Below, piece by piece: positions 32,346 to 40,492 of a stretch of DNA of 40,564 nt. The notes beneath the pieces were generated by a model. The model had not been told where the DNA came from and did not search any database. It was given only the letters and a program-made list of their open reading frames with translations. This stretch comes from Candidatus Saganbacteria bacterium CG08_land_8_20_14_0_20_45_16. GTDB taxonomy: Bacteria; Margulisbacteria; WOR-1; O2-12-FULL-45-9. The position numbers were made by a program, and so were the translations under genes. How positions within the stretch are numbered: position 1 is the first letter of the stretch; every line of letters begins with the position of its first letter. Location: positions 1-40,564 of the forward strand of contig PEYM01000059.1 of the NCBI GenBank assembly GCA_002774365.1, given 5' to 3'.

Positions 32346-32873
32346 ATGAAAAGGGCCAAACAAAACGAACCAATTGAAAATAGAATTTATTACCTCAGGC
32401 ACCTGCGGGTAATGTTAGATCAAGATTTGGCCGCGCTATATGGTGTTACAACAAAAGTTTTCAACCAAGCAGTCAAAAGGAATAAGGAACGTTTTCCCTC
32501 AGACTTCATCTTCCGTCTAACTCGCCAGGAATATCGGTTTTTAAGGTCACAAGTTGTGACCTTAGATAATTCATTAGGTCAAGGAAAACATCGCAAGTAT
32601 CTTCCTTTTGCTTTTACCGAACAAGGCATTGCTATGCTTTCTGGAGTCCTGAAAAGTCAACAAGCTGTTCAAGTCAATATCGCAATTATGAGGGCTTTTG
32701 TAAGGGTGAAACAAATAATAACAACCCACAAAAATATCTATAAAAAATTAAACGAGCTGGAAGCAACAATTAAAACACAAGATCACGACAGAAAGGTTAT
32801 CTTTACCGCTATCCGAAAAATGTTAGCCTATGAAGGAAAGCCCAAAAAGAAAATCGGTTTCTTCTGTGATTAA
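32346..32873 (+). CDS. ORF6N domain protein
   Basis: A 175-residue protein with the ORF6N DNA-binding domain: IENRIYYLRHLRVMLDQDLA, LYGVTTKVFNQAVKRNKERF, DFIFRLTRQEY and KYLPFAFTEQGIAMLSGVL. The C-terminal part is a helical coiled-coil (NIYKKLNELEATIK). Such proteins are common in phage and mobile-element islands and are often annotated as KilA-N/ORF6N regulators; here no phage gene adjoins it. Confidence 0.88.
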   Translation: MKRAKQNEPIENRIYYLRHLRVMLDQDLAALYGVTTKVFNQAVKRNKERFPSDFIFRLTRQEYRFLRSQVVTLDNSLGQGKHRKYLPFAFTEQGIAMLSGVLKSQQAVQVNIAIMRAFVRVKQIITTHKNIYKKLNELEATIKTQDHDRKVIFTAIRKMLAYEGKPKKKIGFFCD

Positions 32874-32874
32874 G

Positions 32875-33837
32875 ATGCAAACAACTGATCTTCTCAACAC
32901 TATCATCCACCAAGCAATCGGCCTCAAGGCCTCAGATATCCATCTTGAACCACACGAAGAACATTTGCAGATTAGATTTCGGCTGGACGGCCTACTGCAA
33001 GACCACGAAAAACTACCGAAAAATTACCACCCCCAGCTCACTTCCAGGATCAAAGTCCTAGTCAACCTTGATATTGCCGAAAAAAGGCTACCACAAGACG
33101 GTCGGACAACTTTTGGCCAGGTTGATTTACGCGTTTCAACCATTCCCACCATTCACGGCGAGAAAGCAGTCCTTCGTCTCCTCAACCGCGAGCAGTTAAA
33201 CCTGAGCTTAGAAGACTTAGGCATGGAAAAAGAAGGTTTGGCTACCTACAAAAGGCTAATTGCCAAACGCTCCGGCATTATTCTTGTGACCGGGCCAACC
33301 GGCTCAGGCAAGACCACCACCCTCTACACAACCTTGGCCAAGTTAAATTCCAAAGAAGTTAACATTATGACTATTGAAGATCCAGTTGAATACAAATTAG
33401 CAGGCATTAATCAAATTCAAGTCAATCAAAAGGCTGGCTTAACTTTTGCCAGAGGCTTACGTTCCATTCTGCGCCAGGACCCGGATATTATCATGGTTGG
33501 CGAGATTCGCGATCTTGAAACAGCTAAGATCGCCCTGCAAGCTGCGTTAACAGGCCATCTAGTTTTCTCAACCCTTCACACTAACGATGCGCCATCTGCC
33601 ATAACCCGTTTAGTTGATATGGGCATTGATAAATATTTGGTTGAAGCAACGGTAATTGGTGTTGTGGCCCAAAGATTAGTTAGAAAAATCACTGGCGGAC
33701 GCGAGGGGATTTTTGAGGTGGTGGCTGGAACAAGCTCCCAAGCTGGGAGAAGAACTTTGCTTGACAACGGCAAGCTCAAGATTGCCCAGGGATTAGTAGC
33801 CAGAGAAGAAGTGGCCAGGGTTATTTACCTCGAGTAA
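32875..33837 (+). CDS. PilB/GspE-type secretion ATPase, minimal form
   Basis: A 320-residue ATPase of the type II secretion / type IV pilus family. Visible parts are ASDIHLEPHEEHLQIRFRLDG, Walker A GPTGSGKTTTLYTTL, the Asp box IEDPVEYKLAGINQIQVN, Walker B ILRQDPDIIMVGEIRDLETA and the His box TGHLVFSTLHTNDA. The N-terminal N1/MshEN domain is absent, and RLVRKI runs straight into GGREGIFEV, so the tetracysteine zinc module usual at that point is deleted. ATG 32875 lies 1 nt after the ORF6N stop; an ATG at 32830 inside that gene is possible. No pilin, GspF or prepilin peptidase is nearby. Confidence 0.85.
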   Translation: MQTTDLLNTIIHQAIGLKASDIHLEPHEEHLQIRFRLDGLLQDHEKLPKNYHPQLTSRIKVLVNLDIAEKRLPQDGRTTFGQVDLRVSTIPTIHGEKAVLRLLNREQLNLSLEDLGMEKEGLATYKRLIAKRSGIILVTGPTGSGKTTTLYTTLAKLNSKEVNIMTIEDPVEYKLAGINQIQVNQKAGLTFARGLRSILRQDPDIIMVGEIRDLETAKIALQAALTGHLVFSTLHTNDAPSAITRLVDMGIDKYLVEATVIGVVAQRLVRKITGGREGIFEVVAGTSSQAGRRTLLDNGKLKIAQGLVAREEVARVIYLE

Positions 33838-35242: not shown

Positions 35243-35250
35243 ATTTGTCT

Positions 35251-35670
35251 ATGTTAAATTTATCAAGCCTAAAATTGGCCACCACTTCCCTAAAAAGCTC
35301 ACTGGCTGTTGCTTTATCTGACGCAGAGATGGGCAAAATGAGCCCCGCAGCTAAAGAAACAATTATCGCCGGCGTAATTCAGAATTTTGAATTTACCTAC
35401 GAGCTTTGTTGGAAATTCCTTAAACGCTTCCTGGGAAACGAATTAGGGAGTAATTATGTGGACGGGGTAAGCCGCAAAGAGCTTTTTAGATTGGGAACAG
35501 AACATCACCTAATCAGCAATATTGATAATTGGTTTAAATATCATGATAGCCGCAATGAAACCTCGCATACCTATGACAAAACAACCGCCCAGGAAGTTTT
35601 CGAAGTCGCCACCAAGTTTATTAAGGACGCAGAAGAACTGCTAGCAAACCTTGAAAAACGCAACCATTAA
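35251..35670 (+). CDS. HI0074-family nucleotidyltransferase substrate-binding (HEPN-like) protein
   Basis: A 139-residue all-helical protein with the HI0074 signature QNFEFTYELCWKFLKRFL, SRKELFRLG, W-F-x-Y-H-D and the conserved RNETSHTYDK. In related pairs it is the HEPN-type partner of a small nucleotidyltransferase, often considered a toxin-antitoxin module. It is followed by the partner gene with a 20-nt overlap. Confidence 0.88.
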   Translation: MLNLSSLKLATTSLKSSLAVALSDAEMGKMSPAAKETIIAGVIQNFEFTYELCWKFLKRFLGNELGSNYVDGVSRKELFRLGTEHHLISNIDNWFKYHDSRNETSHTYDKTTAQEVFEVATKFIKDAEELLANLEKRNH

Positions 35671-35965
35671 TCTTGATAAAAAGCATCTGACTGTTGTCAA
35701 AGATATCCTGCGCCAATATGTTCCAGGTTGCGAAGTCTTAGTTTTTGGCTCACGCTTAACTGGTCAAGCCAAAAGCTATTCAGATTTAGACTTAGCGCTT
35801 CGCGGCCAGAAAAAAATCGAGCGAAAAAAGCTAATCGAGCTTAAAGACGCTTTTGAAGAATCAAATCTTCCCTTTAGGGTAGATATTCTTGATTGGCACA
35901 GGATTACGGAGAGCTTCAGAAAGACAATTCAAAAAGATTTTGTTGTTCTGCAAGCGGCTGCCTAG
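35651..35965 (+). CDS. MNT-type nucleotidyltransferase (HI0073-like)
   Basis: A 104-residue minimal nucleotidyltransferase with the catalytic GSRLTGQAKSYSDLDLAL (GSx10DxD) and a further Asp in RVDILDW. It overlaps HI0074-like by 20 nt with a TTG start at 35651. In HEPN-MNT pairs such proteins transfer AMP to the HEPN partner and neutralise it; which role applies to this HI0073/HI0074 type is not established here. Confidence 0.85.
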   Translation: MKNATINLDKKHLTVVKDILRQYVPGCEVLVFGSRLTGQAKSYSDLDLALRGQKKIERKKLIELKDAFEESNLPFRVDILDWHRITESFRKTIQKDFVVLQAAA

Positions 35966-36019: not shown

Positions 36020-39000
36020 TTACGGAACATACAACAGGGCTTGGCTTAGGTCTTTAAACCCGGCCTTGCGACCCATCCGCTGAAAAGCATTTAAGTTTTT
36101 AATTAGTAAGGTCAGGGAAAAAGGGACAACAATATTTTCTTTCTTAACAAAGACCATAATGCTCTTGATGAAATCAACGGCCGGCCCTTTTTTCCACGCT
36201 AACTTTTTTATCCGCTTGGCCAACGCGTGCTGCTCGCTAGGTAAATCAATCGATAAATAAGAACAAAGAGCGCTGGCTAATTTTGCCTGGTTAACCCGTT
36301 GTCCCCGAACTATTCTCAAAATCTGCAAGAAGAGCTGTTGCTCTTCTTCTGGCGGCTCAAGAAAAAGATTTCTGTCTAGGATGGCGACCTCAAATTGTTG
36401 TTCATCATTTGGTAAGCTGTCACTTTCTGCAACTACATTAAAATTGCCGATATGGGCATCAGAGTGGATTAGCCCTTTCTCAACCTGATAATAATAATTT
36501 TGGACAAGTAACGCTACGATCTGTTTGAGATCATGACCCTGTAAACGCAACTTTTTCATCTTAGTCAAATTCAAGCCGTCAAGATATTCCTCACGCTTAT
36601 AATACTTATTATCAACCCCATAAGATTTTGGCACCCTGATCGAATAGCGAAAACTAGCCGGCCGCCATCCTTGGTTGTGCTGATAAAAGACTTTGTCCTT
36701 GGCTAAGAAGCCGGCAAAGTTTATATCTCGAGAGATCCATTCGTTTATCTCTCTTAAAAGCTGCCCCGCAATCCGATAGCCCCGGCCGTATTTTGCCGTC
36801 AAGGCCTCAGCAACTCTGCTCAGTAGTTCATAAGTTTTCTCGAGAAAATATTCGGCATTGGGATTTAAAACTTTTACCGCTTCGTCGCCATGGGCGCGCG
36901 TTTTAATCTTATAAACCCGCATTAATGATCCACCGCCAATCGGCCAGCCAAAATCAAGCACCTCTTCTTTAAAGTTTACCCACTCTCTCTTAAGCACCCT
37001 GAGGGAGGCCCACTTCGATTGTCCGTGCATGTCGTCATAAGCTGACGAAAGCTCTTCTTCATCGGCTGGCGCTAATTTCACCGACTGGCCCAAAACCTGC
37101 AAAAACCTTGTCCCCAAACTCCAAAGGGGGCTGGCACACTCTAAGACAACTTTCATTGGATCAACTGAGCTCTCCCCCTGCTCCCGAGCTTGCGGCCCGA
37201 TTAAATCAAAGACCCTTGGCTCATAGAGTGAACGAAGTCTGGCAATTGTTAAATGAGCTTCTGTGCTCTCTTCAGTAGCCGAGCCTTGATACAATGCCAT
37301 AATGTCTGGCAGGGCCCCTGGATAGCAATTAAGCTCGCTCTTTATTTTTCTCTCCTGGACTTTGGCCCAAACTGTTGATCGTTCGCGAACCCTGCCTAAA
37401 AGCCTACCCTTTAGTCGCCCCCATTTCTCCTTCAAGTCTAGCCAAAAATTATGCAAAAAAGCATTTCTCACCACCCAACCTTCCCTTTTAAACGTTTTCT
37501 CCCACCCGCTAATCTTTTCGGGTGACCTTAAAATCCGTTTTTCAATAAAGGGACCAATGAAGAAAAACAAGGTTTCAAGGTCTGCCAGCTCGGCCAGCTT
37601 AGGCAGGACCCTTTTTAAGACCAGAAGGAGGCTGGCCCGGCCAGGTAGTTTTTTTACGAAGCGCTTAAAAATGTAGTTAAGCAGCCAAACTCGATCCTCT
37701 CTCTTTTGCAGCAAACCATTTTCCCCAACCAGCAAAAACCTTACCAAACCATGCTTGCCAACTCTCCCTAATTGATAAAGACCAGCCAAATCATTGTCGG
37801 TCAAATGCATCCCTGCGGCAATGGTCGCAGTATTTACCGCTCGTCTAAAATTGTGCCACTTCCAAAGCCGGGCAAACAGCAGGTCAGATCTTAATCGCGA
37901 GTCATCCCGATCTGTTTCCATCAAGCGCTTAAAAAGGCTGTGGCTGTCTAGCTTAATTTCCCTTTGCATCATCTCAAAAACATCTTCACCAACCAGCCAG
38001 CCCCCCATTGAGGGACTCCGCATTGTCTCTTCCAGCCGCTGCTTGGCCATCGCCTCTATCTCTTCCAAATGGTCAATCGAGTATACCTCATAATCAACAA
38101 ACTCTTCCTTAGCCGCCAAAGAAGATGAAAAGAAAAAGCGCGCGTCTTCTATGAGGACCTTTTTTTTCTCTGTATAGTCCATCAAACCAGTTAATTTCTC
38201 GCGCAGTTTCATTGCTAAGCGGCCATCCGCGAACAAATAACTTACCTCGTATAAAAAATCAACCTCACTGGAGTCGGCCAGATCAAATTGATAATTTGAA
38301 AACAAAGCGTGCAAAAACTGAGCGGTAAATAAGCCAAAGTCCCAATTGTTTCTTTGCCATTTCTCGGGAAAGGTCCTGCTCGATATTCTCTGGTTAAAGA
38401 ATTGATTTTTGCTCGCATCCATGATGCTAACCAAGACCATGAATTCCTTAATAAAGCTAGCCTGATTACAATTTGGCATTAGTTCTTTTAAGTGGCAAAG
38501 GAGAAAAGCAAAAAACAGCTGCTCGTTGCATCCAGAGAATCTAACAAGCCTAGCATCTCTCTGCTCATTATAAAAAATTGAGGTCACTAACGCCAAATCA
38601 TCAAAGCCCAGCTCGCCATAATCAGCTCGCCACCACGACTCTGACAAGAGGCGGCTGTCTGATCTTAAAATCGTGATCAGTTTATTAAAGGGGGTAAGAT
38701 TAGCATCTTCTTGCATTAATTCCTCAAACAGATAGCCGAACAAACACGTCACAAAGGCCTCGCAATCAAAATAATCAAACATCTCTCCCTCTGCAATCAG
38801 GTGGTCCATCAATGAGGTTAAAGTTGAGAGCTGCTCTAGCCAAGGCAGACTTCTTATCCCCGCTAGATATTGCCTCGCCAAAAATCGCACCCGCCCCAGA
38901 GCCGCCTCCTCCCTGCTTTTGCTAGAAAACCCTTCCATTTCCTCTCGACATTGCTGATAAAACGGCTCTTTACTTGTCTTTCCTGATGATCTCTTGAGCA

Positions 39001-40492
39001 AAAGAGCTTGCAGTCTCTCAACTAACGCCAGTTCAATTTTGTTTCTACGTGATCGCAAAAAATCTACGCTGATGTGATCACCAAAGGTCTTTTCCGCTTC
39101 AGTAAAATACGTGGCCAACTCTATTGTCGTATCAATATAGGCCAAGCCCATCAGGATCCAGTCAAAATAAGGAAAAGAGCCTAACAAGACACGGGCCTTC
39201 TCTCGGAAAGTTTGCAAAAAATCAAAATAAGACGAGATAAAACCCACTTCCGCCAGCGCCTTGCTGCGCAGAGCGTGTCCGACCAGGGCTTTGGCAAAAA
39301 GCGTTTGGTTAAAGGCGCAAACAAAACCCATTTCGCTCAAGGCCGCTGGATCACAATTATCCATCATTGCCCAATAGTCGGCTGGACCTAAGAACTGGGC
39401 ACTGATTTTGGCCAGCAAAGCATGAAACGGGTCAGCCCCATCTCTCAGCCGAAAAGTATCAACCCCCATTTCCAAAAACAAGACAGCAATCATCATAAAC
39501 ATCTTTTCTCTGTTGGTGTATTTTTCTCCGCATCTCTTGAAAAATTTATTCTCAAAAGCATTAACCAAGGCTTCAATCACTAGATAATCGTCTTGGGACA
39601 ATGGTTTTGATGTTTTATATTCCTTAGTCTCCTCAAACTTAGCGTTGAGATCAGCCAAAGCTTCCACGGTTTCAAACAGATCTGCTTTCTTGGCCGCTGC
39701 CAGTCTCTCTGCCAAAGCCAGGGGAGAAGTCAACTTTCGATAATTACCTTGCTCTTGTTCAGAGTTAGCTGGGACCAGCTGCTTAAACTGAGCTAGGACC
39801 CTTGTCAGTTTGGTAGAAAGAGTAGTTAGGTCAATCTCGTGGGCCAGCATCTCCATATTTAGACTGCGCTCAGTCAGGCTACCGTGCACAATATCCTTCC
39901 CTTGTTTAACAAATTGGTTCATCCGGGCCAGCAAAACCTTGCCGCCATACGGATTAATCCCCCTCTCTTCTGCCACATTGACAAAAGCCGCCAGATCAGC
40001 AAACCACTCCTGCTGACGCTTTAAAGCAAGACGAGCAAAATGATTTGACACGCCCTCTTCTATCAGGTGCTGAAAATGCCCTTGCCTTAAATGCTCAAGT
40101 TCATGCCCTAAGACAAACAGTATCTCTTCTTCATATTCACACAAGGCAAAAAAGCGATCACTGATAATAATCGTCCCACTGGGCAAGACTATGGCATTAA
40201 GCTGGTCATCATATTTAGTCACCATGATCTTGCAGGGGTGATTATCGCCAGCAACTCGACGCAACAGCGCCTTGGCATAATTGGTTACTTCATGATTAGC
40301 CTCATAACAGCCGTAGCGAGCAATTATCTTGCGCTCTACTAATTGCGCTTCGTTCTGCCAGGAAGGATTTAGTTGAGGCAAGCTAATTGCGCCAAAAAAA
40401 CTTTGACAAGCCCTTGAACGTTGACCAAGGACTTTTAGGGGGTTTGTCCAGTTGTGCTTTAGAGCTCTAACGGCTCCCATTCCATCAAACAT
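36020..40492 (-). CDS. Giant M48-type peptidase / UbiB(ABC1)-like kinase fusion
   Basis: A 1490-residue protein with two recognisable ends. Residues about 80-200 look like an M48 zinc metallopeptidase: NAIVLPSGTIIISDRFFALC, then FVLGHELEHLRQGH with HELEH at 130-134 and a downstream QQEWFADLAAF (E162, the third ligand type, followed by AD). Residues about 1160-1490 look like an ABC1/UbiB kinase: WPIGGGSLMRVYKI (G-rich loop at 1186-1189), AVKVLNP (K1207), LIHSDAHIGNF (catalytic-loop D1345, N1350) and AILDRN (D1373 replacing the usual DFG region). The 950 residues between are helical without a recognised family. No membrane helix is obvious at the ends. The gene stands alone at the window edge. 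Confidence 0.75.
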   Translation of the reverse strand: MFDGMGAVRALKHNWTNPLKVLGQRSRACQSFFGAISLPQLNPSWQNEAQLVERKIIARYGCYEANHEVTNYAKALLRRVAGDNHPCKIMVTKYDDQLNAIVLPSGTIIISDRFFALCEYEEEILFVLGHELEHLRQGHFQHLIEEGVSNHFARLALKRQQEWFADLAAFVNVAEERGINPYGGKVLLARMNQFVKQGKDIVHGSLTERSLNMEMLAHEIDLTTLSTKLTRVLAQFKQLVPANSEQEQGNYRKLTSPLALAERLAAAKKADLFETVEALADLNAKFEETKEYKTSKPLSQDDYLVIEALVNAFENKFFKRCGEKYTNREKMFMMIAVLFLEMGVDTFRLRDGADPFHALLAKISAQFLGPADYWAMMDNCDPAALSEMGFVCAFNQTLFAKALVGHALRSKALAEVGFISSYFDFLQTFREKARVLLGSFPYFDWILMGLAYIDTTIELATYFTEAEKTFGDHISVDFLRSRRNKIELALVERLQALLLKRSSGKTSKEPFYQQCREEMEGFSSKSREEAALGRVRFLARQYLAGIRSLPWLEQLSTLTSLMDHLIAEGEMFDYFDCEAFVTCLFGYLFEELMQEDANLTPFNKLITILRSDSRLLSESWWRADYGELGFDDLALVTSIFYNEQRDARLVRFSGCNEQLFFAFLLCHLKELMPNCNQASFIKEFMVLVSIMDASKNQFFNQRISSRTFPEKWQRNNWDFGLFTAQFLHALFSNYQFDLADSSEVDFLYEVSYLFADGRLAMKLREKLTGLMDYTEKKKVLIEDARFFFSSSLAAKEEFVDYEVYSIDHLEEIEAMAKQRLEETMRSPSMGGWLVGEDVFEMMQREIKLDSHSLFKRLMETDRDDSRLRSDLLFARLWKWHNFRRAVNTATIAAGMHLTDNDLAGLYQLGRVGKHGLVRFLLVGENGLLQKREDRVWLLNYIFKRFVKKLPGRASLLLVLKRVLPKLAELADLETLFFFIGPFIEKRILRSPEKISGWEKTFKREGWVVRNAFLHNFWLDLKEKWGRLKGRLLGRVRERSTVWAKVQERKIKSELNCYPGALPDIMALYQGSATEESTEAHLTIARLRSLYEPRVFDLIGPQAREQGESSVDPMKVVLECASPLWSLGTRFLQVLGQSVKLAPADEEELSSAYDDMHGQSKWASLRVLKREWVNFKEEVLDFGWPIGGGSLMRVYKIKTRAHGDEAVKVLNPNAEYFLEKTYELLSRVAEALTAKYGRGYRIAGQLLREINEWISRDINFAGFLAKDKVFYQHNQGWRPASFRYSIRVPKSYGVDNKYYKREEYLDGLNLTKMKKLRLQGHDLKQIVALLVQNYYYQVEKGLIHSDAHIGNFNVVAESDSLPNDEQQFEVAILDRNLFLEPPEEEQQLFLQILRIVRGQRVNQAKLASALCSYLSIDLPSEQHALAKRIKKLAWKKGPAVDFIKSIMVFVKKENIVVPFSLTLLIKNLNAFQRMGRKAGFKDLSQALLYVP

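Follow-up and report, generated by a model that had tools for sequence, protein, structure and literature searches.

Introduction

The biochemical role of UbiB/COQ8 proteins, whether as kinases, ATPases or something else, has long been an open question. Human ADCK3 is kept from acting as a kinase by its Ala-rich loop and KxGQ motif, and replacing one Ala of the loop by Gly permits autophosphorylation (PMC4718504). Proteins of this ABC1 family have also been found together with an M48-domain protein: the plastoglobule core proteome includes ABC1 kinases and At3g27110 (PMC3635846).

Here, we analyzed a 40,564-nucleotide stretch of DNA (hereafter the window), which is the entire contig C33 (PEYM01000059.1) of a 1.78-Mb metagenome-assembled genome (MAG) of the Margulisbacteria/WOR-1 group. 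At one end of the window lies a gene whose product, a very large soluble protein, links a zinc protease by way of a helical middle region to a relative of the UbiB/COQ8 kinases. Such a natural fusion offers a direct readout of whether a UbiB-like domain controls a covalently attached enzyme through its nucleotide state. We found no account of an M48-ABC1 fusion in the open-licence literature, and to our knowledge it has been described nowhere else.

Domain organization of the fusion protein

The gene and its three parts were placed as follows.

36020..40492, minus strand: fusion gene encoding M48 peptidase, helical middle and ABC1/UbiB-like kinase, 1490 residues (open reading frame [ORF], in-frame stop, Pfam domains)
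39773..40336, minus strand: M48 zinc-peptidase domain, residues ~53-240 (Pfam PF01435, PDB profile matches, motif alignment)
37172..39772, minus strand: middle region, residues ~241-1107, mostly helix and fastest-evolving (no Pfam or PDB relative; model; lowest identity between the fusion proteins compared)
36023..37171, minus strand: ABC1/UbiB-like kinase domain, residues 1108-1490 (Pfam PF03109, COQ8 profile matches)

The gene is a single ATG-started ORF with no internal stops. An in-frame TAG lies immediately 5' of the ATG, so the N-terminus of the protein is complete and its start is secure. A GAGGAA stretch is found just upstream of the ATG, and the contig ends 72 bp beyond.

A first-pass annotation, made from the sequence, had proposed that an M48-like peptidase and a UbiB/ABC1-like kinase share one chain, and had suggested a profile search of each part as a check. 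Both domains scored above the curated Pfam cut-offs: PF01435 (M48) matched residues 68-145 (E-value 2.4e-9, 37.7 bits against 20.3) and PF03109 (ABC1) matched residues 1184-1392 (E-value 1.1e-13, 51.4 bits against 22.9). The two are also conserved together in relatives. The observation was confirmed, and the interpretation attached to it was partly supported. The annotation had described a helical middle of ~950 residues that belongs to no known family. Searches of the PDB and, at significant scores, of Pfam indeed found no relative of the middle, and the part of it covered by a low-confidence model of residues 600-1490 was helical, but its length is nearer 870 residues.

Occurrence of the fusion in Margulisbacteria

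We surveyed 74 Margulisbacteria (WOR-1/Saganbacteria) genomes for the ABC1 and M48 families. The order M48, helical stretch of ~800-965 residues, ABC1 recurred: it was present in nine of the 74 genomes, from seven families. Proteins of 1472-1591 residues with both ends were encoded in G036, G046, G028, G024, G026 and G030, the G030 copy being cut by a contig end. In G029, which belongs to the window's class, the copy is split over two contig ends into 562 residues with the peptidase and 872 with the kinase, both open at the break. Combined, these pieces match the window protein in length and order; the linkage there is predicted from pieces on separate contigs. In G040, the two halves lie in frames that overlap close to a stretch of eight C (L076:3594-3712, G040:C10), which may reflect a frameshift, a sequencing error or a programmed event. 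Pfam matches to both domains were obtained in G036, G046, G028, G040 (across the two frames) and G024 (ABC1 slightly below the cut-off). In G026 and G030, Pfam recognized M48, and UbiB was matched weakly.

Because the same order recurs in independent assemblies, the fusion is real and not a misassembly, which refutes the joining of two genes that the first-pass annotation had itself named as a danger. A misassembled join or chance motif matches therefore have a negligible probability: the domain E-values are far beyond chance, and although the gene sits at a contig end, we found no point in favor of an artifact.

In G006, a genome of the window's own family, a 51-residue ORF (L022:8148-8303, G006:C41) matches the kinase domain of the fusion in its final part only and is apparently the remnant of a decayed copy. 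Using two family profiles, we found no further fusion in 383 genomes (~309 of them outside the phylum); the search returned canonical UbiB proteins (mostly 400-720 residues) and one ABC1 ORF of 1135 residues. This ORF, of which the start alone was read, lies at L127:3774-7178 (G320:C9) in a genome outside the phylum. Degenerate-pattern scans of sequence collections gave a Saganbacteria contig, JABMQY010000089.1, as their sole match. No fusion and no phage homologue were detected in phage and plasmid collections, where the only match, to the kinase part, was in a Collinsella plasmid record. Absences are soft given incomplete MAGs, those of the members being 73-95% complete.

Several candidates were not counted as members. 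The ABC1 matches of 1340-1704 residues in G030 (contigs C198, C116, C8 and C50) are Ser/Thr-kinase-like and have no HExxH, the G015 ORF encodes an ordinary Pkinase protein, and most weak PF03109 matches (~340 residues) cover only the C-terminal half of the profile. G030 carries six related giant ORFs of this 1340-1704-residue size, some cut by contig ends and including two tandem pairs (L077:3-4796, L078:46-10242, L079:3-8692 and L082:2804-7801). Each has an N-terminal Ser/Thr-kinase-like part, and several have a histidine-kinase-like C-terminus.

Conservation of the peptidase and kinase motifs

In the peptidase domain, three motifs were located.

40091..40105, minus strand: HELEH, residues 130-134, zinc ligands and catalytic Glu (HExxH invariant in all nine members)
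39995..40009, minus strand: EWFAD, residues 162-166, the M48 ExxAD region of the third zinc ligand (no change at E162 or D166 in any of the nine)
39866..39886, minus strand: HGSLTER, residues 203-209, counterpart of M48 HPxxxxR (H203 and R209 invariant in all nine)

A profile of the nine N-termini matched the M48 structures 3C37 (E-value 2e-21) and BepA (E-value 2e-11). H130, E131, H134, E162 and D166 correspond to the M48 HExxH and downstream Glu ligand, and like the Ala of the Asn-Ala (NA) motif they do not vary among the nine. The active-site motifs of the peptidase are thus complete in every member, and the domain is predicted to bind zinc and to be proteolytically active. No member has a signal peptide-like start, and the maximum mean hydropathy over a 19-residue window was 1.72 across all members, so no stretch reaches values typical of transmembrane segments; the protein is therefore probably cytosolic. 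The earlier suggestion of an action on membrane proteins found no support here.

We then read the kinase motifs from an alignment with canonical UbiB sequences of the phylum, in which they appeared in order.

37097..37108, minus strand: RFLQ, residues 1129-1132, counterpart of UbiB KxGQ (alignment; Q invariant in all nine)
36926..36937, minus strand: GGGS, residues 1186-1189, within PIGGGSL (~1184-1190), replacing the UbiB A-rich loop AAAS (alignment)
36872..36874, minus strand: K1207, counterpart of the ATP-contacting beta-3 lysine (alignment)
36443..36466, minus strand: HSDAHIGN, residues 1343-1350, catalytic loop HxDxxxGN (alignment; G and N invariant in all nine)
36368..36379, minus strand: LDRN, residues 1372-1375, counterpart of DFG with the Asp kept (D1373 invariant in all nine)

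A profile of the nine C-termini matched COQ8B (E-value 3.2e-19), COQ8A (E-value 1e-17) and bacterial ABC1 proteins ahead of other kinases. The departures from UbiB that the first-pass annotation had pointed out, the GGGS loop and DRN for DFG, held in the alignment. The exact KLGQ form of the KxGQ motif was seen only in G040; its counterparts are RFLQ in the window, RILQ in G029, KLAQ/KFAQ in G036/G046/G028 and KLMQ/KILQ in G024/G026/G030. GGGS is common to the window and G029, the loop is GAAS/GSAS in G036, G046, G028 and G040, and GSGS/GSGT also occur among members. At the positions aligned with ExD and the alpha-C Glu, the window has DxN and Phe (low-identity alignment). The beta-3 Lys has been lost in G024/G026/G030; the window, G029, G036, G046, G028 and G040 retain it. 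The window, G036, G046, G028 and G040 also have HxD; in its place G029 has LSN, and G024/G026/G030 have NPE. The DFG Asp is present in all members, as DVG, DAG, DFG, DCG, DRN (window) or DRR. Erosion is thus uneven: four of the nine members have lost kinase residues, yet none departs from the peptidase residues.

The window protein itself keeps K1207, D1345, N1350 and D1373, and with the Lys, HxD, Asn and Asp present its kinase domain may well be active. Its Gly-rich loop is compatible with ATP use, given the Ala-to-Gly precedent in ADCK3 (PMC4718504). Alternatively, the output of the protein might lie in the C-terminal domain: as an atypical kinase or ATPase, it would act on a protein, a lipid or a small molecule, and the M48 domain would process or regulate it. 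The presence of all four residues in G036, G046, G028 and G040 as well, together with the better conservation of the kinase domain than of the other parts between close members, would fit such an arrangement. We nevertheless consider it improbable, as Lys and/or HxD have been lost in four members whose peptidase site is intact, and by alignment the window has neither an alpha-C Glu counterpart nor ExD.

Tree building placed the kinase domains of the nine fusions on one side of a branch opposite ten canonical UbiB proteins, with 95/95 support that carries a long-branch warning; this split fits a single fusion event. The kinship with UbiB/COQ8, and the presence of both families in the plastoglobule core proteome of plants (PMC3635846), would by analogy allow a factor for quinone or prenyl-lipid synthesis to which a protease was added. 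However, a UbiA-type prenyltransferase was undetected in five of the nine member genomes (G000, G028, G029, G036 and G046; MAGs 73-95% complete), whereas all 14 control genomes were positive, making a role in quinone synthesis very unlikely. The fusion protein also has no membrane anchor, keeps neither the A-rich loop nor KxGQ, and scored 44.7 bits against the 487.55-bit cut-off of the UbiB equivalog TIGR01982.

A regulated metalloprotease as the favored explanation

Our preferred, though tentative, reading is that the protein is a regulated metalloprotease of the cytosol, with a UbiB-like (pseudo)kinase that binds nucleotide as its gate. All parts of one control circuit would then lie on the single chain of a soluble zinc enzyme. 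The N-terminal M48 head would cleave proteins, and the ~870-residue helical middle, as the fastest-changing part, would be the likely arm that binds a substrate or trigger. The C-terminal UbiB/COQ8-like domain would bind nucleotide and, as a (pseudo)kinase or ATPase, open or close the protease; it would not be the main catalytic output. We infer the regulatory role of the kinase domain and the binding role of the middle from sequence comparisons. The invariance of the M48 HExxH/E/D/H/R residues in all nine members, while the kinase Lys and HxD are lost in some, points in this direction. So do the UbiB landmarks that can still be recognized: the KxGQ counterpart, the loop, the catalytic-loop GN and the DFG Asp.

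Several points temper this explanation. The kinase may be active in the window, so that a regulatory role may not fit every member. In hhalign comparisons, the middles of the three subgroups had no detectable homology, though they are similar in length and position, and internal repeats in the middle were weakly hinted at in one subgroup only. The structure predictions were each run with one relative, that is, with shallow alignments, and gave a mean predicted local distance difference test (pLDDT) score of 37 for residues 600-1490 and of 47 for a two-sequence AlphaFold2 model of residues 1108-1490. A fold search with the latter low-confidence model returned no match. We do not take these structural results as counting against the explanation. 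The long-branch warning on the tree belongs here as well.

Rate of divergence and genomic neighborhood

G036 and G046 belong to one genus and have an ordinary M48 protein that is 92% identical, yet their fusion proteins share 50% identity in the M48 domain, 37% in the middle and 56% in the kinase domain. Between close members, the middle is therefore the least conserved part. Similarly, the fusions of G024 and G026 are 39% identical, compared with 87% and 66% for two nearby genes. These comparisons indicate that the fusion protein diverges very fast against a slow genome background, although ancient paralogy or exchange may apply to G036/G046 instead. G024 and G026 have two neighboring genes in common. 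In G024 and G028, the fusion is surrounded by a common block of about twelve genes, with a local positional shift. These shared neighborhoods favor vertical descent.

Across the members, no operon partner was conserved and the neighbors were mostly ordinary metabolic genes. In the window, two genes converge on the fusion gene.

35245..35670, plus strand: HI0074-family nucleotidyltransferase substrate-binding protein (convergent neighbor; TIGR01987, E-value 7e-25)
35651..35965, plus strand: MntA-like nucleotidyltransferase, NTP_transf_2 (NF047752, E-value 2.5e-10, below its cut-off; PF01909, E-value 7.6e-8)

The MntA-like gene ends 54 bp from the stop codon of the fusion gene. Similar nucleotidyltransferase genes are found near the G006 remnant (~0.5 kb away) and no more than 4 kb from the fusion genes of G028 and G036 (window 35245-35965, L022:8359-9025, L075:2709-3409 and G036:C34:17534-17731), and in three of the four cases they are paired with an HI0074-like or HEPN gene. 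The chance probability of this association (four of nine) was ~0.0005, for a test that was chosen after the pattern had been noticed and is uncorrected for that.

Together with the fast divergence, the patchy presence (nine of 74) and the C-terminal remnant in G006, this association raises the alternative of an accessory conflict or defense protein, in which the helical arm would sense an invader or target, the ABC1-like domain would act as a switch and the M48 domain would cut a host or invader protein. These features would fit a conflict role without demonstrating it. PADLOC gave no match in the window, and relatives had only weak matches in the kinase part (E-values 7e-4 to 7e-3). The ordinary metabolic neighbors, the lack of a phage homologue and the single plasmid match, limited to the kinase part, also speak against it, as do the neighborhoods shared by G024/G028 and G024/G026, which suggest vertical inheritance and not island exchange. 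We regard this as the leading alternative to the preferred reading, or a refinement of it, though as rather unlikely. Its stronger form, a phylum-specific one-chain conflict system in which an M48 protease is held by a UbiB-like switch using ATP and aimed by a helical sensor arm that diversifies, we consider doubtful; if true, it would be the first case of a UbiB-family domain controlling proteolysis instead of quinone or lipid metabolism.

Two other loci in the window were recorded. At 342-1175, a 277-residue protein matches only the C-terminal two thirds of the alternative bacterial GlmU family (positions 138-394 of 394), and its N-terminal part seems to be missing. At 32346-33837, a gene for an ORF6N-domain protein (phage antirepressor type) directly precedes and overlaps that of a 335-residue GspE/PilB-like ATPase, which matches only the middle of those families.

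Comparison with known systems

The nine members form a natural series in which the kinase residues range from near-canonical in G040 to lost in G024, G026 and G030, over an unchanged peptidase site. Several of the bacteria that carry the fusion have no detectable quinone prenyltransferase, and the very fast divergence is in itself unusual.

In its catalytic domain, the protein resembles soluble M48 peptidases of the BepA/3C37 type, with the NA motif, HExxH, ExxxD and the HPxxxxR counterpart in the same order. Unlike these, it has no evident signal peptide and no TPR match, and it continues for ~1250 more residues to an ABC1-like end. The Lit phage-exclusion protease also has HExxH, and weak matches of 16-21 bits over ~45 residues were obtained in G036, G046 and G028; these scores are far under the 274-bit cut-off and the M48 matches are stronger and longer, so membership in the Lit family was rejected. 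Plastoglobule ABC1 kinases and At3g27110 bring the same two families together on one particle, but there they are separate proteins in a lipid-droplet setting, and the likeness is one of analogy only. As in UbiB/COQ8/ADCK proteins (ABC1, PF03109), the Lys, HxD, Asn and DFG Asp are in place and a KxGQ counterpart precedes the domain. In contrast to these proteins, the window's kinase has GGGS for AAAS, RFLQ for KxGQ, DxN for ExD and DRN for DFG; it has no membrane anchor and is joined to a peptidase, and four of its relatives have lost catalytic residues.

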